Assembly: GCF_010682065.1 (NCBI RefSeq)
Contig: NZ_JAAGWG010000002.1
Coordinates: 310,001-374,000 of the forward strand
From: Blastococcus saxobsidens
GTDB taxonomy: Bacteria; Actinomycetota; Actinomycetes; Mycobacteriales; Geodermatophilaceae
Direction of reading: 5' to 3'
DNA length: 64,000 bases
In this document: positions 45,728 to 63,140 of the stretch, piece by piece
Numbering within the stretch: the stretch's first letter is position 1
Layout of the letters: each line of letters starts with the position of its first letter
Position numbers and translations under genes: made by a program
The notes under the pieces: model-generated
Seen by the model: the letters and a program-made list of their open reading frames with translations, nothing else
Told to the model about the DNA's origin: nothing
The model's database searches: none

Positions 45728-46606
45728 TCAGCCCAGCGGCGGGAGGGCGGCCAGCAGGCGCACCGCATCCGCGCTCGCCGCGGCGTCGTGCACCCGCACA
45801 CCCCAGGCACCGGCCCGTGCGGCCAGCACCGTCGTCGCCACCGTGGCGGCGTCGCGGCGGTCGGCCGGCCGGGGCCCGCCGTCGGCGTCGGCCAGGACCG
45901 CACCGAGGAAGCGCTTGCGGGAGGCGCCGACCAGCAGTGGGAACCCGAGACCGGTCAGCCGGTCCAGGGAGGCCAGCAGGGCCAGGTCGTGCGCCGGCAG
46001 CTTGGCGAACCCCAGCCCCGGGTCGAGCACCAGCCGCTGGGAGTCCACCCCGGCCGCCAGGGCGACGTCGACCCGCGCCAGCAGCTCCTCGCGCACCTGG
46101 TCCACGACGTCGCGGTACTCCGCGCCGGCGTACATCTGCCGGCTGGGGCCCCGCCAGTGCGTGAGCACCCACGGCACGCCCGTGGCCGCGACGACCTCGG
46201 CCATCGCCGGGTCCGCGAGCCCGCCGCTGACGTCGTTGACCAGCACCGCCCCGGCCTCGACCGCGGCCTCGGCGACCCGTGCGCGCATGGTGTCCACGCT
46301 GACCGCTACCCCGGCCGCGGCCAGCTCGGCGACGACCGGCCGCACCCGCCGGAGCTCCTCGTCCGCGTCCACCCGCCCGGCGCCCGGCCGGGTCGACTCG
46401 CCACCGACGTCGACGTAGTCGGCACCCGCCGCCGCGAGGGCCAGGCCGTGCTCGACGGCCACCCCGGTGGTCGACCAGAGCCCGCCGTCGGAGAACGAGT
46501 CGGGGGTGACGTTGAGGATGCCCACCACGACGCACCGGCCGTGCGGCGGGCGGACGATCGCCGGCGTCCGGGCGGCGGACGGTCGGGCGGCGGCCCTCAT
46601 CAGCAT
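45728..46606 (-). CDS. folP: Dihydropteroate synthase
   Basis: 292 residues, TIM barrel. All substrate motifs are intact: GILNVTPDSFSDGG, GGESTRPG, SVDTMRARVAEAA, LVNDVSGG, DPGLGFAK and GASRKRFLG, so it should be the active enzyme joining p-aminobenzoate with dihydropterin diphosphate, rather than the FolP2-like paralog. The ATG at 46606 has GGAGGAG six bases upstream. Unusually it is not in a folE-folB-folK cluster. Confidence 0.94.
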   Translation of the reverse strand: MLMRAAARPSAARTPAIVRPPHGRCVVVGILNVTPDSFSDGGLWSTTGVAVEHGLALAAAGADYVDVGGESTRPGAGRVDADEELRRVRPVVAELAAAGVAVSVDTMRARVAEAAVEAGAVLVNDVSGGLADPAMAEVVAATGVPWVLTHWRGPSRQMYAGAEYRDVVDQVREELLARVDVALAAGVDSQRLVLDPGLGFAKLPAHDLALLASLDRLTGLGFPLLVGASRKRFLGAVLADADGGPRPADRRDAATVATTVLAARAGAWGVRVHDAAASADAVRLLAALPPLG

Positions 46607-46806: not shown

Positions 46807-48270
46807 TCAGGCCGGGAAGCCGACCGAGTGGGTGTCCATGAACTCCCGGAGACCCTCGATGCCCATCTCGCGGCCGAAGCCGCTGTGGTTGAACCCGCCG
46901 AAGGGCGCGCGCTCGTCGAGGAACGCCGCCCCGTGGCAGTTGACGAACGTGTACCCGGTGCGCAGCTGCGCGCCGATCTGCGCCGCCCGGTCCAGGTCCT
47001 CGGTCCACACCGACGAGCACAGGCCCGACCAGGTGTCGTTGGCGCGGGCCACCGCGTCCTCGACGTCGTCGAACGGCAGGATCGGCAGGGTCGGCCCGAA
47101 CTGCTCCTCCCCGACGACGCGGGCGTCGTCGGACGGGTCGAGCACCAGGCTCGGCTTGAGGAAGTTGCCGACCGAGATGTCGGCACCGTCCACCGCCTCG
47201 CCGAACTCGCGCACCTCCGCGCCGGACTCGCGCGCCTGCGCGAGCAGCTCCAGCACGTACTCCTTCTGCCGGGTCTGGTGCAGCGGGCCCATCGTGACGC
47301 CCTCGTCCAGGCCGTGGCCCAGCTTGGTGGCCGACAGCAGGCCCGAGAGCCCCTCCACGACCTCGTCGTACCGGGAGCGGTGCACGTAGAGCCGCTTGGT
47401 CGCCATGCAGATCTGGCCGGTGGAGTCGAAGGTGCCGCCGAACATCTTCTGCAGCGCCTCCGGGCCGAGGTCGGCGTCGGGCAGCACGATGGCCGGGTCG
47501 TTGCCGCCCAGCTCCAGCGCCACCCGGGTCAGCGACTCCGACGCCATGGCCATGATCCGCTTGCCGCCGCCCGGGCTGCCGGTGAAGCAGACCTTCTTCA
47601 CCCGGTCGTCCTGGATCAGCGCCGAGCCGATCTCGGCGTCGTGGCCGGTTACCACGTTCAGCACGCCGGGGGGCAGCAGCTCGGCCATCTTCTGCACCGT
47701 GCGGGTGGTGGCCAGCGGGGTGGTCGGCGGCGGCTTGACCACCACGGTGTTGCCGGCCACCAGGGCGTAGGGCAGGGACGCGCCGAGGATCGCCATCGGC
47801 CAGTTGAACGGCACGATGATCGTCACGACGCCCAGCGGCAGGTACGACACCTCCGTCCGCCACGGCGGCGCCGGCAGGGTGACCTTGTCCGCCACCCGCT
47901 CGGCCAGCCCTCCGGCGAGCTGGCAGCGGTGCGCGAACACGATCGAGTCGATGAACGACTCCATGCGGATCTTGCCGTTCTCGCGGGTCAGGATCTCCGC
48001 CGTCGCGTTCCGGTCGGCCTCGAGCGGGGCCAGCGCGGCGGTGATCATCTCCGCGCGCTCCTGCGGCGTGCGGGCGGCCCAGGCCGGGAAGGCGCGGTGC
48101 GCCGCGGCCACGGCCTCCTCGGCCTGCTTGGCGCTGGCGGCGCCGGCGTAGCCCACGACCGACCGGCCGTCGGACGGGTCGATCACCTGCAGGTGGTCAT
48201 CGGTGCTGCGCACCTCGCCGGCGATGAACAGCTCGGTCCTGATCTCCGGCAACTGATCCAGAGACACCAT
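46807..48270 (-). CDS. Aldehyde dehydrogenase
   Basis: About 487 residues, NAD(P)-dependent ALDH superfamily. Catalytic residues are in STGQICMATKR (Cys) and RVALELGGND (Glu); the cofactor-binding VIVPFNWPMAI and FTGSPGGGK are present. The pattern fits broad aromatic-aldehyde dehydrogenases such as vanillin or salicylaldehyde dehydrogenase, but this is not decisive. It lies just outside the aromatic operon and could oxidise a ring-cleavage semialdehyde. The ATG 48270 has GAGGAGAG upstream. Confidence 0.9.
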   Translation of the reverse strand: MVSLDQLPEIRTELFIAGEVRSTDDHLQVIDPSDGRSVVGYAGAASAKQAEEAVAAAHRAFPAWAARTPQERAEMITAALAPLEADRNATAEILTRENGKIRMESFIDSIVFAHRCQLAGGLAERVADKVTLPAPPWRTEVSYLPLGVVTIIVPFNWPMAILGASLPYALVAGNTVVVKPPPTTPLATTRTVQKMAELLPPGVLNVVTGHDAEIGSALIQDDRVKKVCFTGSPGGGKRIMAMASESLTRVALELGGNDPAIVLPDADLGPEALQKMFGGTFDSTGQICMATKRLYVHRSRYDEVVEGLSGLLSATKLGHGLDEGVTMGPLHQTRQKEYVLELLAQARESGAEVREFGEAVDGADISVGNFLKPSLVLDPSDDARVVGEEQFGPTLPILPFDDVEDAVARANDTWSGLCSSVWTEDLDRAAQIGAQLRTGYTFVNCHGAAFLDERAPFGGFNHSGFGREMGIEGLREFMDTHSVGFPA

Positions 48271-48363: not shown

Positions 48364-48951
48364 TCACCGGGTCCGTCCGGGGAGGTCCAGCCAGCCCGAC
48401 GGCGTGACGACGGCGTCCACGGGCCGATCGTGCTCCTCGGCGGGCAGCTCGTCGACCACCTCGTCGTCGAACGCCAGCGTGACCAGCAGGGCGTCGGGGC
48501 GGGCGTGCACCAGCGCGCGGTCGTAGTAGCCGCCCCCGCGGCCGAGCCGGATCCCGGCGCGGTCCACCACCAGCGCCGGGACGACGACGACGTCGGCGGC
48601 ACCGATGGCGGTGGCGTCGAGGCGGGGCCCGTCGGGCTCCATCAGGCCGAAGCGCCCGGGCAGGTGCCGCCCGGTGTCGACCGCCCAGTCCAGCTGCCGG
48701 CCCGTCGCCGGGATGACCGGCAGCAGCACCCGGGCGCCGAGCTCGGCGAAGACCGCGGGGATCCGGCCGTGCCCGGGCTCGGTCGGATCGGGCACGAACG
48801 CCGCCAGGGTGGCGGTCCCGGCCAGCCGGCCGACCAGGAGCTCGGCGATCGCGTCGGCGGCCGCCTCGCGCTCGGGCACCGGCCGGGCCACCCGGCGCGC
48901 CAGGTAGCCGGCGCGCAGGGCGGCCTTGGCGGCGGCCGGGTCGTCGCTCAC
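48364..48951 (-). CDS. 5-formyltetrahydrofolate cyclo-ligase
   Basis: About 195 residues. MTHFS motifs: KAALRAGYLARRVARP at the N-terminus and GIRLGRGGGYYDRAL near the C-terminus. It converts 5-formyl-THF to 5,10-methenyl-THF using ATP, recycling inactive folate. GTG 48951 was chosen; ATG 48984 would add 11 residues. The gene is wedged between the aldehyde dehydrogenase and the aromatic operon, and a tetrahydrofolate-dependent demethylase lies 13 kb away, so its location may be meaningful. Confidence 0.88.
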   Translation of the reverse strand: MSDDPAAAKAALRAGYLARRVARPVPEREAAADAIAELLVGRLAGTATLAAFVPDPTEPGHGRIPAVFAELGARVLLPVIPATGRQLDWAVDTGRHLPGRFGLMEPDGPRLDATAIGAADVVVVPALVVDRAGIRLGRGGGYYDRALVHARPDALLVTLAFDDEVVDELPAEEHDRPVDAVVTPSGWLDLPGRTR

Positions 48952-48991: not shown

Positions 48992-50023
48992 TCAGCGCCC
49001 CGCGCGGCTCAGCGCCGCGTCCAGCCGCGGGTACACCCGGCGGACGTTGCCCTCGAAGACCGCCGCGCGGCCGGCCTCGTCCAGCGCCCCGTTCGCGAAC
49101 GCGGTCTCCACGTAGCGGCGGGTGTCGTCGAAGTAGTGGCCGGTGCGCGGGTCGATGCCGCGCACCGCGCCGACCATCTCCGAGCCGAAGAGGACGTTCC
49201 CGGTGTCGATCACGTCGAGCAGGAGGTCCAACCCCGGCTGGTGGTAGACGCAGGTGTCGAAGAAGACGTTGCCCATGACGCCTGCCTCCACCGGCGGTCG
49301 GCCGAGCATGTCGGCCAGGCCGCGGTAGCGCCCCCAGTGGTAGGGCACCGCTCCCCCGCCGTGCGGGATGACCAGGCGCAGCCCGGGCAGGTCGGTGAAC
49401 AGGTCGCCCTGGATCAGCTGCATGAAGGCGGTGGTGTCGGCGTTGATGTAGTACGCGCCCGTGGCGTGGAAGACCGGGGTGGCCGACGCCGAGACGTGCA
49501 CCATCGCCGGCACGTCGAGGGCGACCATCGCCTCGTAGAAGGGGTACCAGCTCCGGTCGGTCAGCGCCGGCGACGTCCAGTGGCCACCGCTGGGGTCGGG
49601 GTTGAGGTTGCACCCCACCATCCCCAGCTCCTCGACGCAGCGGCGGAGCTCGCCGATCGAGCCGGTGATGTCCGCGCCGGGCGACTGGGGCAGCTGGGCC
49701 ACGCCGACGAACCGCTCGGGGAACAGCGTGGTGACCCGGTGGATCAGGTCGTTGCACCGGCGGGCCCACTCCAGGCTCACCGCGGCGTCACCGACGTGGT
49801 GGGCCATCGCCGAGGCACGGGGCGAGAAGAGCGTGACGTCGATGCCGCGCTCGTCCATCAGCCGCAGCTGGCTGCTCTCGATCGTCTCGCGGATCTCGTC
49901 GTCGCTGATCGACGGGTACGCGGGCGGGGCCGTGCCGGCCTGCCACGCCGCGACCTGCTCCTCCCGCCAGGCGGTGTGCGCGGCGGGCGCGGTCGTGTAG
50001 TGCCCGTGGCAGTCGATGATCAT
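48992..50023 (-). CDS. ligJ: 4-oxalomesaconate hydratase (LigJ/GalB type)
   Basis: 343 residues, amidohydrolase-fold zinc enzyme. The start MIIDCHGHYTT, then SPRASAMAHHVGD, LNPDPSGGHW, IPHGGGAVPYHWGR and LFGSEMVGAVRGIDP agree block by block with LigJ of Sphingobium as I remember it. It hydrates 4-oxalomesaconate to 4-carboxy-4-hydroxy-2-oxoadipate. ATG 50023 overlaps the upstream stop (ATGA), coupling it to the dehydrogenase gene. Last gene of the aromatic operon. Confidence 0.93.
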   Translation of the reverse strand: MIIDCHGHYTTAPAAHTAWREEQVAAWQAGTAPPAYPSISDDEIRETIESSQLRLMDERGIDVTLFSPRASAMAHHVGDAAVSLEWARRCNDLIHRVTTLFPERFVGVAQLPQSPGADITGSIGELRRCVEELGMVGCNLNPDPSGGHWTSPALTDRSWYPFYEAMVALDVPAMVHVSASATPVFHATGAYYINADTTAFMQLIQGDLFTDLPGLRLVIPHGGGAVPYHWGRYRGLADMLGRPPVEAGVMGNVFFDTCVYHQPGLDLLLDVIDTGNVLFGSEMVGAVRGIDPRTGHYFDDTRRYVETAFANGALDEAGRAAVFEGNVRRVYPRLDAALSRAGR

Positions 50024-50862
50024 GGCTGCTCCGTCCTCCCGGGGCCCGTCGCGGCGGCCGTCGTCTGCTGGGTGGCCGTCGTCCGCTGGGTGGCCGCGGC
50101 GTCGCGGAGCTCGATCAGGAGGTCGCGCGCGGCGGGGGCGACCCGCGCCGGCACGCCCAGCTCCTCCAGCTGCTCGGTCGCCGCGGTCATCTCGTCGGCC
50201 CGCCGGCGGGCGTGCGTGTGGGTGCCGTCCACGAGCCGGTCCACGGTGCGCTCGTCGAAGCCCGCCAGCTCCGCGGCGATGTTGCCGCGCAGCCAGTCCG
50301 CGCAGCCCGCCGCCTCCGCGCCGCGCAGCGCCTCCACCACGGCGGCGGCCAGTCCCTTGTAGAAGACGCTGCGCAGCAGCTTGCGCGAGATCGCCGTCCC
50401 GGCCGGGCCGGGCTGCAGGGTGACGTCGGCGCCGAGGCCGGAGAACACCTCGAGGAACCGGTCGGCGCCGTCCCCGGACACGAGCATCGGCGTGCGCAGA
50501 CCCTTGCCCGGCACCGGGGACATCAGGGCGACGTCGACCACGGGGACGTCGTGCGGCGCGGCCCGCTCCGCGAGCGCCACCTTGACCCCCGGGCTGGCGG
50601 TGTTGAGGTCGGCCCAGAGCGTGCCCGGGCGCAGCCCGGCGAGCGCGTTCTCCAGCGCGGTCATGGCGTCGTGCGAGCTGTTGACGCTGAGCACGATGTC
50701 GGCGCCGGCGACCGCGTCGGCCTCCGAGCCGCACGGCGCGACGCCGTCCACGGTCAGGCCCAGCGGGTCGTAGCCGCGCACGTCGGCGCCCGCGGCGACC
50801 AGGTCCCGGGCGATCTCCGAACCGGCCTCACCCAGGCCGAGCACCGCGACGGCCGCAGTCAC
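50020..50862 (-). CDS. NAD(P)-dependent oxidoreductase with DUF1932 C-terminal domain
   Basis: About 280 residues: a Rossmann start AAVAVLGLGEAGSEIARDLVAAG, a central VDVALMSPVPGKG, and a helical C-terminal half of the 6-phosphogluconate-dehydrogenase-like/DUF1932 type with RKLLRSVFYKGLAAAVVEAL. It should oxidise or reduce a hydroxy acid. It is translationally coupled on both sides within the ring-cleavage operon, so a role in the pathway is very likely, yet it is not one of the standard Lig enzymes. Confidence 0.82.
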   Translation of the reverse strand: MTAAVAVLGLGEAGSEIARDLVAAGADVRGYDPLGLTVDGVAPCGSEADAVAGADIVLSVNSSHDAMTALENALAGLRPGTLWADLNTASPGVKVALAERAAPHDVPVVDVALMSPVPGKGLRTPMLVSGDGADRFLEVFSGLGADVTLQPGPAGTAISRKLLRSVFYKGLAAAVVEALRGAEAAGCADWLRGNIAAELAGFDERTVDRLVDGTHTHARRRADEMTAATEQLEELGVPARVAPAARDLLIELRDAAATQRTTATQQTTAAATGPGRTEQP

Positions 50863-51815
50863 TCCCGGACCTCGACCGGCGGCGTGCCGTGGGTGTGGAA
50901 CGTGGAGATGGTCTGCAGACCCCACGCCTGCCCCTTCGCCCGCTCGGCCTCCGACCAGTCGACCGGCTGCCAGTCCGGCGCGAGCACCAGCCGGGCGGCG
51001 GGGTTGTCCAGCTCGATCCGGTTGCCGGCCGGCTCCCAGACGTAGAGGAAGAAGCTCTGCTGGATGGTGTGCTTGTGGGGCCCGGTCTCGATGTGCACGC
51101 CGTGCTCCAGCGCCAGGTCGGCGGCCCGGATGATGTCGTCGCGGCTGTCGACGGCGAAGGAGATGTGGTGCAGCCGGCCCGACGTGCCGGTCCGGTCCTT
51201 CGTCCAGACCGCGTTGTAGCCCTGGTTGGTGAAGGTGGTCCAGGTGCCGGCGATCTCACCGCTGTCCAGCACGATCTGCTCGGTGGTCATGGCGCCGAGG
51301 GTGTCGACGAAGAAGTCGCGGTTCTCCTGCGGGTTCACCCCGAGGTAGTTGATGTGGTCGATCCGCCGGACGCTGACACCGCGGCCGGGATAGGCCTGCG
51401 CCTGGTTCTTGAGCGCCGGCTTCAGGTCCCCCTCGGGCCGGTACCACTCGGTCTCGTAGTAGACGCCCATCTCGTGGCCGTCCGGGTCGGTGAAGACGTA
51501 GACCGGCCCGTAGCCCGGGTCGCCGTCCTGCCAGCCCTTGCCGAGACCGGTCCGCTCGATGGCCTCGACGCGGCGCTGCAGCGCCTCCGGCGTGCTGGCC
51601 CGGAAGTTCGTCCGGCCCACGCCCGGCTGCGGGGCGGCGGTCAGCTTGATGGTGGTGTTCTCGTAGTCGTCCCAGGCGCGCAGGAACACCGAGTCGCCGG
51701 AGGAGCCGTTCTCGGTCATCCCCAGGTACCGCACGAAGAAGTCCAGGCTCTCCTCCGGCTTGTGGGTCAGCAGCTCGATGTGGGCGAGGTGCGCGATGTC
51801 GTGCAGGGGTGGCAT
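50859..51815 (-). CDS. VOC-family extradiol ring-cleavage dioxygenase
   Basis: 318 residues, two vicinal-oxygen-chelate modules. The C-terminal one carries the Fe(II) triad: His154 (RRIDHINYLG), His216/217 (GRLHHISF) and Glu268 (GNRIELDN), spaced as in catechol 2,3-dioxygenase. It should open a catechol-type ring next to the hydroxyls using oxygen. Gallate and protocatechuate 4,5-dioxygenases of the known pathways belong to the unrelated LigAB class, so this is a different enzyme in the same place. ATG 51815 has AGGAG upstream. Confidence 0.9.
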   Translation of the reverse strand: MPPLHDIAHLAHIELLTHKPEESLDFFVRYLGMTENGSSGDSVFLRAWDDYENTTIKLTAAPQPGVGRTNFRASTPEALQRRVEAIERTGLGKGWQDGDPGYGPVYVFTDPDGHEMGVYYETEWYRPEGDLKPALKNQAQAYPGRGVSVRRIDHINYLGVNPQENRDFFVDTLGAMTTEQIVLDSGEIAGTWTTFTNQGYNAVWTKDRTGTSGRLHHISFAVDSRDDIIRAADLALEHGVHIETGPHKHTIQQSFFLYVWEPAGNRIELDNPAARLVLAPDWQPVDWSEAERAKGQAWGLQTISTFHTHGTPPVEVRE

Positions 51816-51854: not shown

Positions 51855-52934
51855 TCAGGCGCGCGGGAAGGCCGTCCCGTCGAAGAGCTTGCGGGCGGTG
51901 CGCACGACCGCGGACCGCTCGGCCCGCGGCGGGGTCCCGGAGGCGTCGACCACGACGTCGACGAGCAGGTGCCCCGTCGGGTGCTCCACGTCCACCTGCG
52001 AGGTGTCGGTCGGCCACGACCGGGTCAGCTCGTGGCCGACGGCGCCGGGCAGCCGCATGCCGGTGACCACGCTGACCGCCCCGAGCACGCCGATCGAGGA
52101 GTGCGGCTGGACGGGGATGAACGAGCGGGTGCACACCTGTCCGCCGTCGCGCGGCGGGGCCAGCAGGACCGTCTTGGGCACCGATGCGGTGGCGACGTCC
52201 CCCATGCCCATCAGCTGTGCGGCCTTGCGCCGGAAGGTGTCCACGCGCTCGAGCAGGCCTGTGTCGGCGGCGAGCTCCTCGTGCGACTCGTAGCCGGTCA
52301 GGCCGAACGCCTCGGCGAGGGCCAGGACGACCGGCATCCCGTTGTCGACGCAGGTGACCTCGATGCCCTCGACGGTGTCGCGGACGTGCCCGGTGGGCAG
52401 CAGCGCGCCGGTCGAGGAGCCCTCGGTGTCGGTGAAGGCGAGCACCACCGGCGCGGCCGTGCCGGGCACGCCGGCGATCGCGACCTCGCCGCGGTACTCC
52501 ACCCGGCCGCCCGGCGTCGGGAAGGTGGCCACGGCGATGCTGCCGGAGTTCACCATCCGGATGCGCACGGTCGTCTCGTCGTCCGCGGCCGGGACCAGGC
52601 CGCGCTCGACGGCGAAGGGCCCCACGCCGGCGAGGATGTTGCCGCAGTTCTGCCGGTCGCTGACGGTCGCCTCGTCCACGCCGAGCTGCAGGAACAGGTA
52701 GTCGACGTCCACGTCCGGGTCCGCCGACCTCGAGACCACCGCGACCTTGCTGGTGAGCGTCGTCCCGCCGCCCAGGCCGTCGATCTGCCGCGGGTCGGGG
52801 GTGCCCATGAGCCGGAGCAGCAGGTCGTCGCGCTGCGCCGGGTCGGCCGGCAGGTGCTCGGCCTCGAAGTAGAGGCCGCGGGAGGTGCCGGCGCGCAGCA
52901 TCGTGCAGCGGACACCTGAGTCGTCGTAGCTCAC
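51855..52934 (-). CDS. galD: 4-oxalomesaconate tautomerase (GalD/PrpF family)
   Basis: About 359 residues, PrpF/diaminopimelate-epimerase-like fold. MLRAGTSRGLYFEAEHLP at the start, DGLGGGTTLTSKVAVVSRS, SDRQNCGNILAGVGPFAVERG with the catalytic-type Cys, and CVDNGMPVVLA match the family. GalD-type members interconvert keto and enol forms of 4-oxalomesaconate, the step before LigJ. Its GTG overlaps the aldolase stop. PrpF (aconitate isomerase) is the alternative, but the neighbours favour GalD. Confidence 0.88.
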   Translation of the reverse strand: MSYDDSGVRCTMLRAGTSRGLYFEAEHLPADPAQRDDLLLRLMGTPDPRQIDGLGGGTTLTSKVAVVSRSADPDVDVDYLFLQLGVDEATVSDRQNCGNILAGVGPFAVERGLVPAADDETTVRIRMVNSGSIAVATFPTPGGRVEYRGEVAIAGVPGTAAPVVLAFTDTEGSSTGALLPTGHVRDTVEGIEVTCVDNGMPVVLALAEAFGLTGYESHEELAADTGLLERVDTFRRKAAQLMGMGDVATASVPKTVLLAPPRDGGQVCTRSFIPVQPHSSIGVLGAVSVVTGMRLPGAVGHELTRSWPTDTSQVDVEHPTGHLLVDVVVDASGTPPRAERSAVVRTARKLFDGTAFPRA

Positions 52935-53635
52935 CTCTGGTCCTCCGCGTACTTCTCGTACGGGACGTACTCGATGCCGAAGTCCGCCAGCCGGTCGCGC
53001 AGGCCGTAGCGGTCCAGCCCGAGCTCCCCCTGCTGGAAGGCGGCGCGGCTGGCGGCCTCCTTGTCCAGCCGGGCCTGCGACGAGGTGAGCGCCCGGGGCA
53101 CGTCGGCGCGGGGCACCACCATCACGCCGTCGTCGTCGGCCACCACGACGTCGCCCGGGTGGACGGTCTGCCCGCCGATGACGACCGGCACGTTGACCGC
53201 GCCGGCCGTGGCCTTCACCGAGCCCTGCGCGCTGACCGCCCGGGACCAGGCCGGGAAGCCCATCTCGCGCAGCTCGGCGACGTCGCGGACCCCGCTGGCC
53301 AGCACCACGCCCCGGACACCGCGCTGGGCGAGCGCCGTGGCGAACAGCTCGCCGAACAGCCCGTCGGTGGACGGCGAGTTGGTGGCGACGACGAGCACGT
53401 CGCCGGGGCGGCACTGCTCGACCGCCACGTGGATCATCAGGTTGTCCCCGGGCCAGCAGAGGACGGTGACGGCGGTGCCGCCGATCCGCGCGCCGGACCA
53501 GGCCGGGCGGAACTCGGGGCCCAGGTAGCCGACCCGGCCGAGCGCCTCGTGCACGGTGGCCACGCCGAACTCGCCGAGCTGCTGGGCATCCCCGGCGTCG
53601 GCGCGCGGCGGATCGGTGACGACGACGTTCCTCAT
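52931..53635 (-). CDS. ligK: 4-carboxy-4-hydroxy-2-oxoadipate aldolase (LigK/GalC, RraA-like)
   Basis: 234 residues. RraA-fold features: GVATVHEALGRVGYLGPEFRP, VEQCRPGDVLVVATNS, GVVLASGVRDVAELREMGFPAWSRAVS, VHPGDVVVADDDGVMVVPRADV and the C-terminal LDRYGLRDRLADFGIEY typical of CHA aldolases. It splits 4-carboxy-4-hydroxy-2-oxoadipate into pyruvate and oxaloacetate. The ATG overlaps the GntR stop (ATGA) with GGAGGA upstream. Confidence 0.92.
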   Translation of the reverse strand: MRNVVVTDPPRADAGDAQQLGEFGVATVHEALGRVGYLGPEFRPAWSGARIGGTAVTVLCWPGDNLMIHVAVEQCRPGDVLVVATNSPSTDGLFGELFATALAQRGVRGVVLASGVRDVAELREMGFPAWSRAVSAQGSVKATAGAVNVPVVIGGQTVHPGDVVVADDDGVMVVPRADVPRALTSSQARLDKEAASRAAFQQGELGLDRYGLRDRLADFGIEYVPYEKYAEDQR

Positions 53636-54282
53636 GCTGTTCCTCCGGACGGGCTGGGCTCGGACAACGCGGTGATGACGCCGCGGAGGTGGGTGGTCGC
53701 CGCTGCCTCGGCGCGCTCGGGGTCGCGGGCGGTGATCGCGTCCACCAGCGCGGTGAGCCCGCTGAGGCTCACGCGGGGGCGGCCGGGCCGCAGCGAGAGC
53801 CGGAACTGGTGGCGCACCAGCTGGGCCTGCAGCCGGCCGACCAGGTCCGCCGCGATCGGGTGGCGGGCGGCCTCGGCGACCATGCCGTACAGCTGCTGGA
53901 TGAGCTCCGAGTACTTCTGGACGTCGCCGGAGTCCACCGTCGCGGTCATGGTGCCCAGGTGGGCGCGCAACCGATCGGCCTCGGCGTCGGTGATCAGCTC
54001 CGCCGCCTTGCGGGCGAGCAGGCCCTCGAGCGGCACCCGGCACTCGGTGATGGCGATGGCCTCCTCGGTGGAGACCATCCGGACGCGGGCGCCCTTGTTC
54101 GGGATCCGCTCCACGAGCCCCTCGGCGGCCAGCGCGTCGATCGCCATGCGCGCGGCGCTGCGGCTCACCCCGGTCCGGCTGACCAGCTCGGCCTCGACCA
54201 GCCGGTACCCCGGCGGCATGTCACCGCGGGAGATCGCGACCCGAAGGGCGCGCTCCGCCATTTCCTGAGCCGCGGACGCCAT
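53632..54282 (-). CDS. GntR-family (FCD) regulator of the aromatic operon
   Basis: 216 residues: winged helix (ALRVAISRGDMPPGYRLVEAELVSRTGVSRSAARMAIDALAAEGLVERIPNKGARV region, residues 8-65) and an FCD effector domain with metal-type His residues (EAARHPIAADLV, LVRHQF). It is the first gene of the operon and overlaps ligK, so it controls its own level. The mRNA appears leaderless: the -10 TAACGT ends seven bases before the ATG. Confidence 0.92.
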   Translation of the reverse strand: MASAAQEMAERALRVAISRGDMPPGYRLVEAELVSRTGVSRSAARMAIDALAAEGLVERIPNKGARVRMVSTEEAIAITECRVPLEGLLARKAAELITDAEADRLRAHLGTMTATVDSGDVQKYSELIQQLYGMVAEAARHPIAADLVGRLQAQLVRHQFRLSLRPGRPRVSLSGLTALVDAITARDPERAEAAATTHLRGVITALSEPSPSGGTA

Positions 54283-54394: not shown

Positions 54395-55072
54395 CTAGGC
54401 CCGGACGGGCTCCGGGAGCAGCGCGTCGACGAGCTCCTGCACGTGGGCCCTGGCGGCAGCCTCGGCGGCCTCGGCCCGTCGCTCTCCGACGGCGTCGACC
54501 ACCCGCGCCAGCCCGGCGACCGATCGCCCGGCCTGCCCGGGACGGAGCAGCAGCTGGAACTCGTGCCGCACGATCCGTCCCTCCAGCTGCGCCACCAGCG
54601 ACGAGGCCATGGGGTGGTCCGCCAGCTCCCGCAGCAGCCGGTGGTGCTCCCGGACCAGCGTCGAGCACTCGAGCAGCTCCTGGTCGGCCACGGCTCGCTG
54701 CATCCGCAGGAGGTTGTCCCGCAGGTCGTCGGCCCGGCCACCCGTCGCGTTCTGCGCCGCCTTGTGCGCCAGGAGGCCGTCGAGGACCTGCCGGCACTCC
54801 AGGACGGCCACCGCCTCGGCCGTGGAGACGACCCGCACCCGCGCCCCGCGGTGGGGGATCCGCTCGACCAGCCCCTCGGCGATGAGCACGTCCAGGGCCA
54901 GCCGGGCGCTGTTGCGCGTCACCCCGTAGCGCTCCCCCAGCTCCGGCTCGACGAGCCACTGGCCCGGGGCGACGGCGCCGCGCACGATCTCGGCTCGGAG
55001 CCCCTGCTCGGCGATGCGCTTGGCGCGCACACCGCGGAGCAGGTGCGCGCCCTCGCCGGTCGAGTGGGCCAC
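54395..55072 (-). CDS. Second GntR-family (FCD) regulator
   Basis: About 225 residues, paralogous to the neighbouring GntR protein by architecture and many shared blocks (LVEPELGERYGVTRNSARLALDVLIAEGLVERIPHRGARVRVVST region versus its neighbour). FCD domain with HHRLLRELADHPMASSLV and IVRHEF. The GTG at 55072 was chosen; the open frame extends to 55192 through a hairpin, so the longer form is unlikely. It lies between the Liv operon and the aromatic operon, possibly the product of a local duplication. Confidence 0.88.
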   Translation of the reverse strand: MAHSTGEGAHLLRGVRAKRIAEQGLRAEIVRGAVAPGQWLVEPELGERYGVTRNSARLALDVLIAEGLVERIPHRGARVRVVSTAEAVAVLECRQVLDGLLAHKAAQNATGGRADDLRDNLLRMQRAVADQELLECSTLVREHHRLLRELADHPMASSLVAQLEGRIVRHEFQLLLRPGQAGRSVAGLARVVDAVGERRAEAAEAAARAHVQELVDALLPEPVRA

Positions 55073-55222: not shown

Positions 55223-56476
55223 TCACCCGAAGGACTCGACCGTGTCGTAGCCCTTGCCGTTGAACTTCTGCACGTTCAGCGTCGAGACCGCGGGCTGACC
55301 GTCCTCGCTGGTGGTCACGGACGTGCCCTCCAGCATGAGCGGCGCCTGGAAGCCCTCGATGCCGCGCAGCGCCTCCATGAAGTTCTCACGGGTCGGCTCG
55401 GTCATCTCCGCGAACGCCTGCTCGAGGGTCGCGCCGACCATCCAGCTCCACTGGCAGTGCGGGAACGCCGGCGGGTCCTGGTAGTCGCCGTGCTCCTTGA
55501 GGGCCGCCAGGTAGGCCTGAACGTCCTCGTCCTGGGCGAAGGCCGGGCTGGCCGGCGCCTTCGCGAAGGAGACCGAGTAGATGCCGGGGTAGGCAGCGGC
55601 GCCGCCGGGCTCCAGGATCGCGCCGGGGCTGGAGGTGTTGGACGGCAGGAACCAGCTGGGCTTCCAGTTGAGCTGCTGCGCCTTCTGCAGCGCAGAGATC
55701 ATCAGCGGGGTCACCGACATCGCGTTGAAGAAGACGTCGGCACCGCTGTTGGCGAGCTCGGTGAGCTGCGCGTCGACGGAGGTGTCGGTCGCCTCGTAGG
55801 TGAGCTCCTCGACGACCTCGATGTTGTCCGCACCCTCGATGGCCGACTTGAAGCCCTCGACGTAGCCCTCGCCGTAGTCGTCGTTCTGCGACAGGATCGC
55901 GACCTTGTGCTCCTCGGTCGAGGAGGCGAGCAGCTCGCCGAAGGCCTCGCCCTCGTTCTGGTAGATCGGCACGAAGCCGAGCTGCCAGGGGCTCTCGTCG
56001 GTGTCGCTGAACAGCGGGTCGCCGGTCATGACCAGCACCTGCGGCACCTCGTCGGCGATGGCCGCGTCACGCCAGGCGCGGTTCGTCGGCGTGCCCAGGC
56101 CCGCGGTCATCGCGAAGACCTCGTTCTTGAGCTGGTCGTAGTTGGCCTTGGCCTGCTGCGGGTCGTAGGTGTCGTCCAGCGCCCGGATGTCGACCGTGCG
56201 GGTCTTCCCGTCGCCGAACTCGACGCCGCCCTCGGCGTTCTTCGCACCGAAGTACGCCTTGACGCCGGCGACCGTGCAGGTGCCCGGACCGGCGGTGGCG
56301 CCGCTCAGCGGGGTGGTGATGCCGAGCGTGACCGACTCGTCGGTGATGCCGGGGCTGGCCGAGGCGCCGCCCTCGCCGCCGCCGTCGCCTTCACGACCAC
56401 AGGCCGTGAGGGTCAGCGCGAGCGCCGAGACGACAGCGACACCGCGGGCAGTACGCGATCGAAAGTGCGTGTTCAT
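55223..56476 (-). CDS. Liv-type ABC transporter substrate-binding lipoprotein
   Basis: 417 residues. Lipoprotein signal with LTLTACGREG (Cys26), a Gly/Ser-rich linker, then a type I binding-protein domain (ITDESVTLGITTPLSGATAG, KVAILSQNDDYGEGYVEGF, ADVFFNAMS). It catches substrate outside the membrane. In this neighbourhood an aromatic acid is likelier than a branched amino acid. It is last in the operon (ATGA overlap with livM), an unusual place, since binding proteins usually come first. Confidence 0.9.
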   Translation of the reverse strand: MNTHFRSRTARGVAVVSALALTLTACGREGDGGGEGGASASPGITDESVTLGITTPLSGATAGPGTCTVAGVKAYFGAKNAEGGVEFGDGKTRTVDIRALDDTYDPQQAKANYDQLKNEVFAMTAGLGTPTNRAWRDAAIADEVPQVLVMTGDPLFSDTDESPWQLGFVPIYQNEGEAFGELLASSTEEHKVAILSQNDDYGEGYVEGFKSAIEGADNIEVVEELTYEATDTSVDAQLTELANSGADVFFNAMSVTPLMISALQKAQQLNWKPSWFLPSNTSSPGAILEPGGAAAYPGIYSVSFAKAPASPAFAQDEDVQAYLAALKEHGDYQDPPAFPHCQWSWMVGATLEQAFAEMTEPTRENFMEALRGIEGFQAPLMLEGTSVTTSEDGQPAVSTLNVQKFNGKGYDTVESFG

Positions 56477-57585
56477 GCGAGACCTTGCCTCTCTCTCTCA
56501 GATCCCTCCGCCGCGGTGCCCGACCCTGCGGTGGACGACGGAGTGGTTGGTGGGGCGCCCGGACCGCGGTCGGCGCCGGAGCGCCGGCGGCCGCGGGCCA
56601 GTACGCGGGGCAGCGACGCGAGGCCGCCGGGGAGGACGAAGAGGACGATCAGCAGGACCGCTCCCTGCAGCAGCGCCGTGAGGCTGGCGTCGACCGCGTT
56701 CGTCAGCTGCGGGACCAGCACGTACCAGGCCCCACCGAGGATCGAGCCCACGATGCTGCCGGCGCCGCCGATGACCATCGCGGCGAGCAGCTCGATGGAG
56801 TGCCCGAAGCTCATGGTCTCCGGCGAGGTGTACTGGATGACGAGCATGTAGAGGAAGCCGCTCACGCCGCCGATCAGCGAGGCGATCGTGAACGCCAGCA
56901 CCTTGTACCGGTACGGCGAGATGCCCATCGAGGAGGCGACGTTCTCGTTGCCCTTGACGATCGCGAAGGCCCGGCCGTACTTGCCGCGCACGAGGTAGCG
57001 GGTCAGCAGGAAGACCACGCCGCCGATGACCAGCACGAGGTACAGCTGCCACTGGTCGTCGTAGAGCCCGGTCCACTCCGGCGTCTCGGCGAACCTCGCC
57101 GACAGCCCCTGGGAGCCGCCGGTGAACTCGCTCAGCCGCTTGGCGAGCGGCACGCCGACGATCGGCAGCGCGACGGTGACCATCGCGATCGCCAGCCCGC
57201 CCAGACGCGCCGCGGCGAGCGCCACGATCAGCCCGGCCACCGCGGGGATCAGGCAGGCCAGCACGAAGACCAGAACGATGTTCCAGTCGTTCTGGACGCC
57301 GTACGCCGTGACGTACGCGCCGACGCCGAGGAAGAAGATCTGCCCGAGCGAGACCTGGCCGGTGTAGCCCATCACGACGTTGAGCCCCAGCACGGCGACG
57401 GCGAAGACGCCGATGCGGGCGACCGTCTCGTTGGCGAACTCCGGCAGCACCAGGGGCAGGACGGCGAGCACGACGGCGACCACCAGCGGGAACGCCATGC
57501 GCACCCACGGGCGCTGCCGGAAGGACTGGCCGGCCGGGGACGGGGTGGACGGGGACGAGGTGGAGAGGGACGAGGCGGAGGCCAT
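56473..57585 (-). CDS. livM: Liv-type ABC permease (LivM)
   Basis: About 370 residues with about ten membrane helices. LivM features: LNVVMGYTGQVSLGQIFFLGVGAY, then GKYGRAFAIVKGNENVASSMGISPYRYKVLAF near residue 215 (the ATPase-contact loop), and SIELLAAMVIGGAGSIVGSILG. The C-terminus adds a 35-residue Pro/Ser/Thr-rich cytoplasmic tail. ATG 57585 overlaps the livH stop by one base. Confidence 0.93.
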   Translation of the reverse strand: MASASSLSTSSPSTPSPAGQSFRQRPWVRMAFPLVVAVVLAVLPLVLPEFANETVARIGVFAVAVLGLNVVMGYTGQVSLGQIFFLGVGAYVTAYGVQNDWNIVLVFVLACLIPAVAGLIVALAAARLGGLAIAMVTVALPIVGVPLAKRLSEFTGGSQGLSARFAETPEWTGLYDDQWQLYLVLVIGGVVFLLTRYLVRGKYGRAFAIVKGNENVASSMGISPYRYKVLAFTIASLIGGVSGFLYMLVIQYTSPETMSFGHSIELLAAMVIGGAGSIVGSILGGAWYVLVPQLTNAVDASLTALLQGAVLLIVLFVLPGGLASLPRVLARGRRRSGADRGPGAPPTTPSSTAGSGTAAEGSERERQGLA

Positions 57586-58466
57586 CACACACGCACCACG
57601 GTTTTCCGGCCGAACAGGCCCTGAGGTCGGACGATGAGCACGACGAAGAGGAGGATGAACGGCACCGCGACCTTGAGGTCGTAGCCGATGAACGGGACGT
57701 AGACCGCCGCCAGGTTCTCCAGGACGCCGATGATCCAGGCCGCGACGACGACGCCGACCGGGCTGGTGAGACCGCCGAGGATGACCGCGGCCAGCGCGTA
57801 CACGAGGGCGTTGTCGAGCATCCCCGGCGTCAGCGTGAGCTGCGGCGCCACGAGCGCGCCGGCCACGGCGCCCAGCACCGCCGCCAGGCCCCACCCGACC
57901 ATGAGCAGGCGTCCGACGGGGAGCCCGGAGAACGCCGCCGACTGCGGGTTGATCGCGACCGCCCGCAGCGCCAGGCCCAGCTTGGTGCCGACGAAGAGGG
58001 CCTGCAGCAGGATCATCGCCACGACGATGACGGCCGTGGTGCCGATCGAGCGGATGCTCACCGAGACACCCAGGAACGACACCGTGTCGAGCGGGAAGAG
58101 CGACGGGAACTGCTGGTTGTTGTACGTCCAGAGCCACCCGGCGATACCCGTGATCAGGGTGAGCAGGCCGATCGTGGCCACGACGGCGGTGTCGGGGTCA
58201 CCCCGCTCGAACCGCCGCATCAGCCACCGCTCGACGACCGCGCCGAGGGCGAAGGAGAAGACGATCGACAGCAGGATGGCGACGATCAGCGGGAGGCCCT
58301 GGTTCGTCAGCCACCAGGCGAAGTACGCCGCGAGCACGGCCATGCCGCCCTGGGCGAAGTTGATCAGGCCGGTCGCCTGGTGGACGAGCACGATCGCGAG
58401 GGCGATCGCCGCGTAGACGGAGCCGGTGGACAGGCCGTCGACGACGAGTTGGATGAAGGTCCCCAT
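57585..58466 (-). CDS. livH: Liv-type ABC permease (LivH)
   Basis: 293 residues with about eight membrane helices: STGSVYAAIALAIVLVHQATGLINFAQGGMAVLAAY at the start, the GLALRAVAINPQSAAFSG loop, and ILGGLTSPVGVVVAAWIIGVLE. Together with LivM it forms the channel. Starts one base past the livF stop and is translationally linked to livM. Confidence 0.94.
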   Translation of the reverse strand: MGTFIQLVVDGLSTGSVYAAIALAIVLVHQATGLINFAQGGMAVLAAYFAWWLTNQGLPLIVAILLSIVFSFALGAVVERWLMRRFERGDPDTAVVATIGLLTLITGIAGWLWTYNNQQFPSLFPLDTVSFLGVSVSIRSIGTTAVIVVAMILLQALFVGTKLGLALRAVAINPQSAAFSGLPVGRLLMVGWGLAAVLGAVAGALVAPQLTLTPGMLDNALVYALAAVILGGLTSPVGVVVAAWIIGVLENLAAVYVPFIGYDLKVAVPFILLFVVLIVRPQGLFGRKTVVRV

Positions 58467-58467
58467 G

Positions 58468-59178
58468 TCACCCTCCCAGGTAGGCGCGACGGATCTCGTC
58501 CATGCCCTTGAGCTCGGCGGACGTGCCGGTGAGCACGCTCCGTCCGGTCTCCAGGACCGTGGCGCCGTCGACGAGGTTCAGGGCGAGGTTGGCGTTCTGC
58601 TCGACCACGAGCATCGCGATGCCCGATTCGGTGCGCAGGCGCCGGATGGCGTCGTACACGTTCTTCGCGGTGCTCGGCGCGAGACCGAGCGAGGCCTCGT
58701 CGAGGAGCATCAGCCGCGGCTTGGACATGATCGCCCGCCCCACGGCGAGCATCTGCTGCTCACCGCCGGACAGCGCCGAGGCGTTCGACGTGATGCGCTC
58801 CTGCAGGTTCGGGAACAGGTCGAGGCAGTAGTCGATGTCCTGGTCGACGCCCTTGCGGTCCTTGCGCAGGTACGCGCCGACCCGCAGGTTGTCCCGGACG
58901 GTGAGGTCACCGAACGTGCCGCGCCCCTCGGGCACGTGCGCGATCCCGAGGGCGGCGACCTGGTCGGGCCGCAGGCCGCGGATGTCCTTGCCGTCGAAGA
59001 CGATGCGGCCGCCGGTGCGGACGGTGGCGCTGATCGCGCGCAGGGTCGTCGTCTTCCCGGCGCCGTTGGCCCCGAGGATGCCGAACGCGCCGCCCTCCGG
59101 AACGCTCAGCGACACCCCCTCCAGCACCTGGACGGGGCCGTAGGACGCGGTGACGTCCTCCAGCTCAAGCAGCGTCAT
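58468..59178 (-). CDS. livF: Liv-type ABC ATPase (LivF)
   Basis: 236 residues. Walker A GANGAGKTT, signature LSGGEQQMLAVGRAI, Walker B LMLLDEASLGLAP and the switch His region EQNANLAL. It powers the transporter with LivG. Overlaps livG by 14 bp. Confidence 0.95.
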   Translation of the reverse strand: MTLLELEDVTASYGPVQVLEGVSLSVPEGGAFGILGANGAGKTTTLRAISATVRTGGRIVFDGKDIRGLRPDQVAALGIAHVPEGRGTFGDLTVRDNLRVGAYLRKDRKGVDQDIDYCLDLFPNLQERITSNASALSGGEQQMLAVGRAIMSKPRLMLLDEASLGLAPSTAKNVYDAIRRLRTESGIAMLVVEQNANLALNLVDGATVLETGRSVLTGTSAELKGMDEIRRAYLGG

Positions 59179-59947
59179 CGTCGGCGTCCTTCCCGATGTA
59201 GGCCTCGATGACCCGGGGGTCGGACTGCGCTTCGGCGGCCGTGCCCTCCATGAGCTTCGCGCCGTGGTCGAGCACGACGACCCGGTCGGTGAGGGCGGCG
59301 ATCAGACCCATGTGGTGCTCGACGATGACGACGGTGATGTCGTCCTCGGAGCGCAGCCGCCGGACGGTGGCGATCAGCGTCTCCACCTCGGTGTGCGGCA
59401 GGCCGGCGGCGGGCTCGTCGAGCAGCAGCAGCTGCGGCTTCATGAGCAGCGCGCGGCAGAGCTCGATGCCCTTGTGCAGGCCGTGGGACAGCTCGTCGGC
59501 GGGCAGGTGCGCGGCCCAGCCGAGGCCGTTGCGCTCGAGGAGCTCGAGCGCCTCGGCGCGCAGCTCCTTCTCCGCACGCCGGGTGCGGGGGGTGCGCAGC
59601 GACCACTCCAGCGCTCCACCGGGGAGCCGGGTGTGCGCGCCGAGCAGCACGTTCTCCAGCACCGTCTCGTGCAGCTGCAGCGCCGGGTGCTGGAACGTCC
59701 GCGCCAGGCCGTGCCCGGCCAGCGTCGCGGGACGGGCACCCTGGACCTCCGCGCCGTCGATCCGCACGCTGCCCGAGGTGGGCTTGTAGTGCCCGCTGAT
59801 GCAGTTGAACAACGAGGTCTTGCCTGCGCCGTTGGGCCCGACCAGGCCGAAGATCTGGCCCGGCTCGACGGTGAAGCTCACCTCCTGCAGCACCTTGATG
59901 CCGCCAAACTGCAGGCTCACGTCCTGCAGCACCAGCTCAGCCGCCAT
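59165..59947 (-). CDS. livG: Liv-type ABC ATPase (LivG)
   Basis: About 260 residues. Walker A GPNGAGKTS, Q-loop region LARTFQHPALQLHETV, Walker B LLLLDEPAAGL and EHHM. The signature, usually LSYGQQR/LSGGQ, reads LSHGLHKGIE, lacking the Gln. ATG 59947 with AGGAGAAG upstream was preferred to GTG 59986, which would lie almost at the transcript start. First gene of the Liv operon. Confidence 0.92.
   Translation of the reverse strand: MAAELVLQDVSLQFGGIKVLQEVSFTVEPGQIFGLVGPNGAGKTSLFNCISGHYKPTSGSVRIDGAEVQGARPATLAGHGLARTFQHPALQLHETVLENVLLGAHTRLPGGALEWSLRTPRTRRAEKELRAEALELLERNGLGWAAHLPADELSHGLHKGIELCRALLMKPQLLLLDEPAAGLPHTEVETLIATVRRLRSEDDITVVIVEHHMGLIAALTDRVVVLDHGAKLMEGTAAEAQSDPRVIEAYIGKDADDDAA

Positions 59948-61375: not shown

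Positions 61376-63140
<1,765 letters not shown>

Follow-up and report, generated by a model that had tools for sequence, protein, structure and literature searches.

A VOC-fold enzyme as a proposed gallate dioxygenase in a 4-oxalomesaconate operon of Blastococcus saxobsidens

Described gallate dioxygenases and class I extradiol enzymes

The gene product that we describe here resembles GalA of Pseudomonas putida KT2440 and DesB of Sphingobium SYK-6 in its proposed reaction, the conversion of gallate to 4-oxalomesaconate (OMA), and in the partners of its family, which include galB, galC, galD and an AAHS transporter. Unlike GalA and DesB, which belong to the LigB superfamily, it has an unrelated fold and consists of one VOC chain rather than LigB and LigA domains. 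In its available part, the AromaDeg paper assigns gallate dioxygenases to the LigB superfamily and gives a class I substrate list without gallate (PMC4250580), and the accessible portion of the open-access literature yielded no description of a VOC gallate dioxygenase. The available sections of another report state that DesB is strict for gallate, and that SYK-6 requires this dedicated enzyme, the gallate activity of LigAB and DesZ being too low for growth on syringate (PMC3962378). LigAB-type enzymes are nevertheless able to open gallate to OMA, according to the excerpts available from two papers (PMC8431788, PMC8091115); in the first of these, gallate turnover to OMA by an actinobacterial protocatechuate 4,5-dioxygenase reaches 44% of the enzyme's rate with protocatechuate.

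By structure, the closest described enzymes are of a different kind. Catechol 2,3-dioxygenase XylE (1mpy), like the Rhodococcus enzymes 3lm4/7q2a (AphC), shares with the VOC protein the fold, the metal triad and the equivalents of H248 and Y257 of homoprotocatechuate 2,3-dioxygenase (HPCD), but the VOC protein has Tyr200 in place of the catalytic His, carries a set of residues particular to its clade and is encoded in a gal operon rather than a catechol meta operon. HPCD (1f1x) is likewise a class I enzyme, and its substrate, a 3,4-diol, has a carboxylate side chain. Its R243 and R293, which we take to be the carboxylate ligands, align with T244 and G295 of the VOC protein, and its H200, presumably the catalytic second-sphere His, aligns with Tyr200. 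This catalytic His is thought to be central to class I extradiol cleavage. The nearest solved sequence is PDB 9wgj (360 bits), which also has Tyr at position 200 and lacks the clade residues H247, Q252, R275 and H309. Its title, 'Catechol 1,2-dioxygenase', is either a misnomer for a VOC-family sequence or a sign of an unusual cleavage mode; no paper on this entry was found in the open-access literature.

The VOC gene, its operon and LigAB in the same genome

The window, by which we mean the whole stretch of 64,000 nucleotides that was analysed, contains on its minus strand an operon that reads, in the downstream direction, GntR regulator, LigK aldolase, OMA tautomerase, VOC dioxygenase, DUF1932 dehydrogenase and LigJ hydratase (Table 1). 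Adjacent genes overlap by 4 bases, save for a spacing of 39 bases between the tautomerase and VOC genes. The same order is conserved in all nine loci of the genus (the window and eight others), so the arrangement is not due to chance. OMA tautomerase, OMA hydratase and CHA aldolase are thus present together, in agreement with the original prediction that the downstream genes handle OMA (NF033377, NF006731 and the LigJ match to 6dxq), and no dioxygenase besides the class I VOC enzyme was found in the operon, as had also been claimed. The DUF1932 dehydrogenase accompanies the VOC gene in 48 of 96 loci, some of which are repeats; we know of no established role for it in this module.

Several genes around the operon may be connected with the supply of aromatic acids. 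The branched-chain-amino-acid-type ABC transporter upstream of the operon is a candidate aromatic-acid uptake system, and Thermus oshimai, Agrobacterium and Roseomonas likewise have a system of this type beside the VOC gene. The LigM-type O-demethylase would supply gallate from 3-O-methylgallate. A folP-like gene and a 5-formyl-THF cyclo-ligase gene flank the operon and fit a link to folate-dependent O-demethylation, and an aldehyde dehydrogenase gene is also located nearby.

The VOC gene begins with ATG, and a Pfam search of its product returned only PF00903 (73.1 bits) and PF13669, with no match to the LigB domain PF02900. The protein scores 293.6 bits against the catechol 2,3-dioxygenase model TIGR03211, below the curated cut-off of 320.2, and a more distant clade member scores above it (361.6 bits, L131). 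Members of the clade are usually annotated as catechol 2,3-dioxygenase in databases. An AlphaFold2 model (mean pLDDT 89.3) has the two-domain VOC fold and superposes on 3lm4 with Z 43.5 and 1.8 Å over 312 residues, on XylE with Z 38.7 and on HPCD with Z about 34. Alignment to HPCD gives H154, H217 and E268 as metal ligands, which settles the earlier assignment of His154, His216/217 and Glu268 on H217, with H216 as its neighbour; the triad is invariant in 58 of 58 aligned sequences. Modelled fold and metal triad together confirm the assignment of the product as a class I (VOC-fold) extradiol dioxygenase, for which Fe(II)-dependent ring cleavage is the predicted activity.

Table 1. Positions of the features discussed (window numbering unless a locus is named)
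Feature	Position	Strand	Evidence or remark
folP-like gene	45728-46606		By sequence reading
Aldehyde dehydrogenase gene	46807-48270		
5-formyl-THF cyclo-ligase gene	48364-48951		
LigJ-type OMA hydratase (Amidohydro_2)	48992..50023	-	552 bits to 6dxq, 481 to 2gwg
NAD-binding DUF1932 dehydrogenase	50020..50862	-	PF09130 + PF03446; overlaps VOC gene
Proposed gallate dioxygenase, VOC-fold class I extradiol, 318 aa	50859..51815	-	Profile, structure and alignment evidence
OMA tautomerase, GalD/LigU type	51855..52934	-	NF033377 499.5 bits, cut-off 440
4-carboxy-4-hydroxy-2-oxoadipate (CHA) aldolase, LigK/GalC	52931..53635	-	NF006731 320.8 bits, cut-off 179
GntR/FCD regulator, first gene of conserved operon	53632..54261	-	PF07729 + PF00392; 9/9 genus loci
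Second GntR/FCD regulator	54395..55072	-	Not present at every genus locus
Branched-chain-amino-acid-type ABC transporter: binding protein, two permeases, two ATPases	55223..59947	-	
LigM-type vanillate/3-O-methylgallate O-demethylase	61740..63140	+	NF047885 896.3 bits, cut-off 580
Intact LigAB pair	71973-73245 (window-equivalent)		Beyond window end
Ferredoxin, IclR regulator, ferredoxin reductase, cytochrome P450	L003:1727-5142		Adjoins the O-demethylase genes
DesA-like O-demethylase, alpha/beta hydrolase, muconolactone-isomerase-family protein, LigA, LigB	L003:5329-9242		Same contig, beyond window end
LigA, LigB, VOC, PIG-L, LigK	L121:8774-12398		Proteobacterial MAG
Shortened VOC gene	L148:8875-9417		G342; 181-residue gene call
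VOC, GntR, DUF6282, PIG-L, LigK, DUF1932	L158:6965-11631		Thermus oshimai plasmid

An intact LigAB elsewhere in the genome had been named beforehand as one half of what would speak against the original prediction; it was looked for and found. The single LigB of the genome (PF02900) is on the same contig, about 8.4 kb past the window end and about 20 kb from the VOC gene, which rules out the reading that LigAB is missing here. LigA scores 119 bits against TIGR02792 (cut-off 108.6), and LigB scores 377.3 against NF009903 (cut-off 317), with 313 bits to LigB 1b4u and 262 to DesB 3wku. The VOC enzyme is therefore not the sole candidate source of OMA in this organism, and, since LigAB-type enzymes can open gallate, it is not required to explain OMA formation here. 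The gallate turnover described in the available text of PMC8431788 suggests that the LigAB of this genome may also take gallate.

One gene beside LigAB encodes a DesA-like O-demethylase, which at 572.9 bits stays below its model's cut-off of 800; two others encode an alpha/beta hydrolase and a protein of the muconolactone isomerase family, and folate genes are also present. As far as the accessible parts of the two reports go, this cluster is similar to the route for 3-O-methylgallate in Pseudomonas NGC7, which comprises MgaAB dioxygenase, MgaC CHMOD hydrolase and MgaD tautomerase (PMC12314914), and also the Novosphingobium LigAB/DesCD route (PMC8091115); the muconolactone-isomerase-family protein is at the place of the SnoaL-like MgaD. 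LigAB, the hydrolase and the isomerase-family protein thus probably serve a 3-O-methylgallate route that gives OMA by a parallel branch. The ferredoxin, regulator, reductase and P450 genes that adjoin the O-demethylase genes form a candidate P450 O-demethylation system. The genome also has an adjacent pair of intradiol dioxygenase genes that we read as PcaGH (the subunit names are our interpretation), which gives protocatechuate an ortho route, and its best LigI homolog is 33% identical at 98 bits.

Clade signature, distribution and gene context

In a FastTree phylogeny the 72 clade sequences are monophyletic (support 0.999), and 9wgj is their sister (support 0.97). All 72, like 9wgj, have Tyr at position 200, where the outgroup sequences (8 of 8), 3lm4 and HPCD have His; the second-sphere His of the catechol 2,3-dioxygenase/HPCD-type active site is thus missing from the clade, with Tyr200 instead. 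K136, H247, Q252, R275, R292 and Q296 are common to the 14 clade members on plasmids and occur in 57 or 58 of 58 sequences of a second alignment (A2). Among the sequences aligned, H247, Q252 and R275 are found in the clade only, R292 otherwise only in 9wgj, and K136 with Q296 in 9wgj and, of the outgroup, in L015. Among His-type relatives whose context is annotated, the nearest, from Thermus thermophilus (44%), has as neighbours a 4-hydroxyphenylacetate 3-hydroxylase-like gene, 4-hydroxy-2-oxovalerate aldolase and acetaldehyde dehydrogenase, which constitute a catechol meta pathway set.

Within the genus, 9 of 23 genomes, including the present one, have a LigAB-type LigB together with the tautomerase and the VOC ortholog, and the others have none of the three, so that the VOC gene looks here like an addition and not a simple replacement. 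For the order, the scans for VOC, LigA and tautomerase were taken as one sample of 397 genomes, as their handles agree. A VOC match at E 1e-60 or better is present in 45 genomes, 40 of which contain the focal clade (at least 54% identity; partial in G342); the other five have only relatives at 42% identity or less, and the tautomerase was absent from all five at E 1e-60. In 38 of the 40 clade genomes, no more than 5 kb separates the tautomerase gene from the VOC gene; the exceptions are G205, which has no tautomerase, and G364, where the distance is 19 kb. In G342, the shortened VOC gene adjoins tautomerase and LigK genes, and the genome has LigAB. When LigAB is called as LigA over 100 bits, it is found in 27 of the 40 clade genomes versus 15 of 357 others, so LigAB and the VOC gene tend to co-occur. 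The call leaves 13 clade genomes without LigAB, although in draft genomes gene absence may reflect incompleteness. Twelve of these 13 have the tautomerase near the VOC gene, with LigK near it as well in all 11 of the 12 that were fetched (G324 was left out).

Among at least 580 relatives in the contig scan of named genomes, 80 loci were kept. Counted with a simple gene caller, which fused tautomerase and VOC in L074 and gave nothing usable in L120 and L126, 62 of these 80 loci have both LigK and tautomerase with the VOC gene, 35 of them with PIG-L, 20 with LigJ and 7 with neither; none of the four partners was called in 9 of the 80. One PIG-L representative matches GalB (5cgz, 267 bits). Counts over 96 loci include repeats (L133/L065 and L143/L073). 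PF02900 was searched in 50 of the 80 named genomes, and an enzyme was termed LigAB-type above 200 bits, a line drawn in the score gaps of 158-205 (named genomes) and 158-218 (order). Of the 50, 10 have a LigAB-type enzyme and 40 do not. LigK, tautomerase and VOC are all present in 37 of these 40, whereas L067, L116 and L126 do not have the full set. Most genomes have PF02900 matches below 160 bits, so that other LigB-family gallate enzymes are excluded only where there is zero match, as in Streptacidiphilus jeojiense (L077), Actinomadura hibisca (L110) and Streptomyces hoynatensis (L111) among the 50 tested, and in G062 of the order. Altogether, the module occurs without a LigAB-type enzyme in 12 order genomes and 37 of 50 named genomes, and four genomes have no LigB-family match at all.

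Plasmids provide the layouts that are closest to described gallate operons. On a walnut Agrobacterium plasmid, galB, VOC, galC and galD are followed by a tannase gene (PF07519, 438 bits), and galB-VOC-galC-galD recurs in Thioclava, two Rhizobium, a Paracoccaceae bacterium and A. vitis; the order in Roseibium is VOC-galB-galC-galD, with an aldehyde dehydrogenase downstream of galD. Pantoea has LysR, a GalT-like AAHS transporter and VOC beside a divergent galBCD, a layout like galTAP/galBCD of KT2440 as given in the accessible part of PMC12314914, with VOC at galA's place. Of 15 plasmid records (14 bearing the clade and a T. thermophilus control), 14 have no PF02900 match, a count that applies to the plasmids and not to whole genomes; the sole positive is a Roseomonas plasmid with LigA-LigB-hydrolase-VOC. 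No galBCD set was seen within 6 kb on the Chimaeribacter, Methylobacterium and one Pantoea plasmid. The T. oshimai module has no annotated OMA tautomerase and is adjoined by aldehyde dehydrogenase and 4-hydroxybenzoate hydroxylase genes. In a proteobacterial MAG (L121), LigA, LigB, VOC, PIG-L and LigK form one run.

The idea of a non-homologous replacement is probably right for the clade, which in many genomes holds the galA position and occurs in modules without LigAB, and it does not hold in its simple form for this genome, where LigAB is intact. Likewise, the VOC gene stands where LigAB or GalA would be expected in many gallate operons, but in B. saxobsidens LigAB is only about 20 kb away.

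Gallate and the alternative substrates

We think it fairly probable that the VOC gene product is a non-homologous gallate dioxygenase that yields OMA, doing the job of GalA and DesB from an unrelated fold. Gallate as the main substrate, like the regiochemistry, is what we infer from comparative evidence: the proximity of VOC to the tautomerase in 38 of 40 genomes, the modules without LigAB and the gal layouts on plasmids. In the proposed mechanism, the enzyme would hold gallate via two hydroxyls, open the ring between two hydroxylated carbons and cut toward the third hydroxyl, giving OMA directly and without a dehydrogenase; the neighbouring tautomerase, hydratase and aldolase would then take OMA to pyruvate and oxaloacetate. 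By the geometry of class I sites, the third hydroxyl would come close to position 200, and this may explain the replacement of the catalytic His by Tyr200. That the whole clade, which spans Actinomycetota, Pseudomonadota, Deinococcota and probably Acidobacteriota, constitutes a second, independently evolved gallate dioxygenase, in which Tyr200 and the third hydroxyl replace the catalytic His and extradiol and intradiol cleavage coincide, has in our judgment an even chance of being correct. Loss of the catalytic His could instead mean altered or weak ring cleavage. The reading is also weighed down by clade members that do not have both the aldolase and the tautomerase near the VOC gene. These are L067, L070, L073, L119, L120, L124, L126, L128, L130 and L132, of which some are on short contigs, together with L147, L157, L158 (which has the aldolase), L160, L161 and L167.

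One alternative, which we regard as unlikely, is that the VOC enzyme opens 3-O-methylgallate to CHMOD, from which a methylesterase would give OMA or cyclisation PDC, and that gallate is left to LigAB or to no enzyme. The Amycolatopsis loci bear on both readings. In Amycolatopsis pithecellobii (L069), DesA, PurU, LigK, tautomerase, VOC and FolD are on one strand, with LigAB elsewhere in the genome, and in L067, L070 and L073 the VOC gene is beside a divergent DesA-PurU-FolD group. A DesA-type syringate demethylase next to VOC, at L069 along with LigK and tautomerase, supports gallate as the substrate, while adjacency to DesA, PurU and FolD also fits 3-O-methylgallate. Alpha/beta hydrolases beside VOC in Roseomonas, near it in Geodermatophilus sabuli (L055) and downstream on Agrobacterium plasmids would also suit the latter. 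In 9 of 96 loci the module comes with a LigI-like cluster (PDC hydrolase), which points to 3-O-methylgallate or protocatechuate there. However, homologs of the window hydrolase are labelled in few loci, and LigI-like ones in just those 9, with other esterase families being possible, and no annotated O-demethylase is in view at the tannase operon or the galTA-like layout. It is possible that an enzyme whose main substrate is gallate also opens 3-O-methylgallate.

Cleavage of protocatechuate, at the 4,5 or 2,3 position, followed by oxidation of the semialdehyde by an aldehyde dehydrogenase to feed the OMA enzymes, appears quite improbable. The aldehyde dehydrogenase gene near the operon in the window has a counterpart at one of the eight other genus loci (L043), and those in Roseibium and, with 4-hydroxybenzoate hydroxylase, in T. 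oshimai would fit such a route. Yet none was seen at the other seven genus loci, no cluster so labelled is among the frequent neighbours at the 96 loci (some clusters carry no label), and the PcaGH-like pair gives protocatechuate an ortho route. A search of the open-access literature for a protocatechuate 2,3-dioxygenase, in a single wording, returned no paper. We consider it very unlikely that all of the OMA comes from LigAB and that the VOC enzyme has another catechol as its substrate or was acquired with the operon as a bystander. The shared distribution of LigAB, VOC and tautomerase in the genus and the enrichment of LigAB in clade genomes of the order are in its favor, and the adjacency of LigAB and VOC in L121 and Roseomonas could mean that the two have different substrates. 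It is countered by the modules that occur without LigAB, including those in the four genomes without any LigB-family match, and by the VOC genes embedded between galB and galC.

If the gallate reading is true, the ability to open the gallate ring, which is a key step for tannins and syringyl lignin, arose on at least two occasions and from unrelated folds. Gallate degradation would then be present in many genomes scored as being without it, and a large clade would be misnamed in databases as catechol 2,3-dioxygenase. For the catalytic residue of class I extradiol enzymes, the clade would also offer a natural His-to-Tyr experiment.
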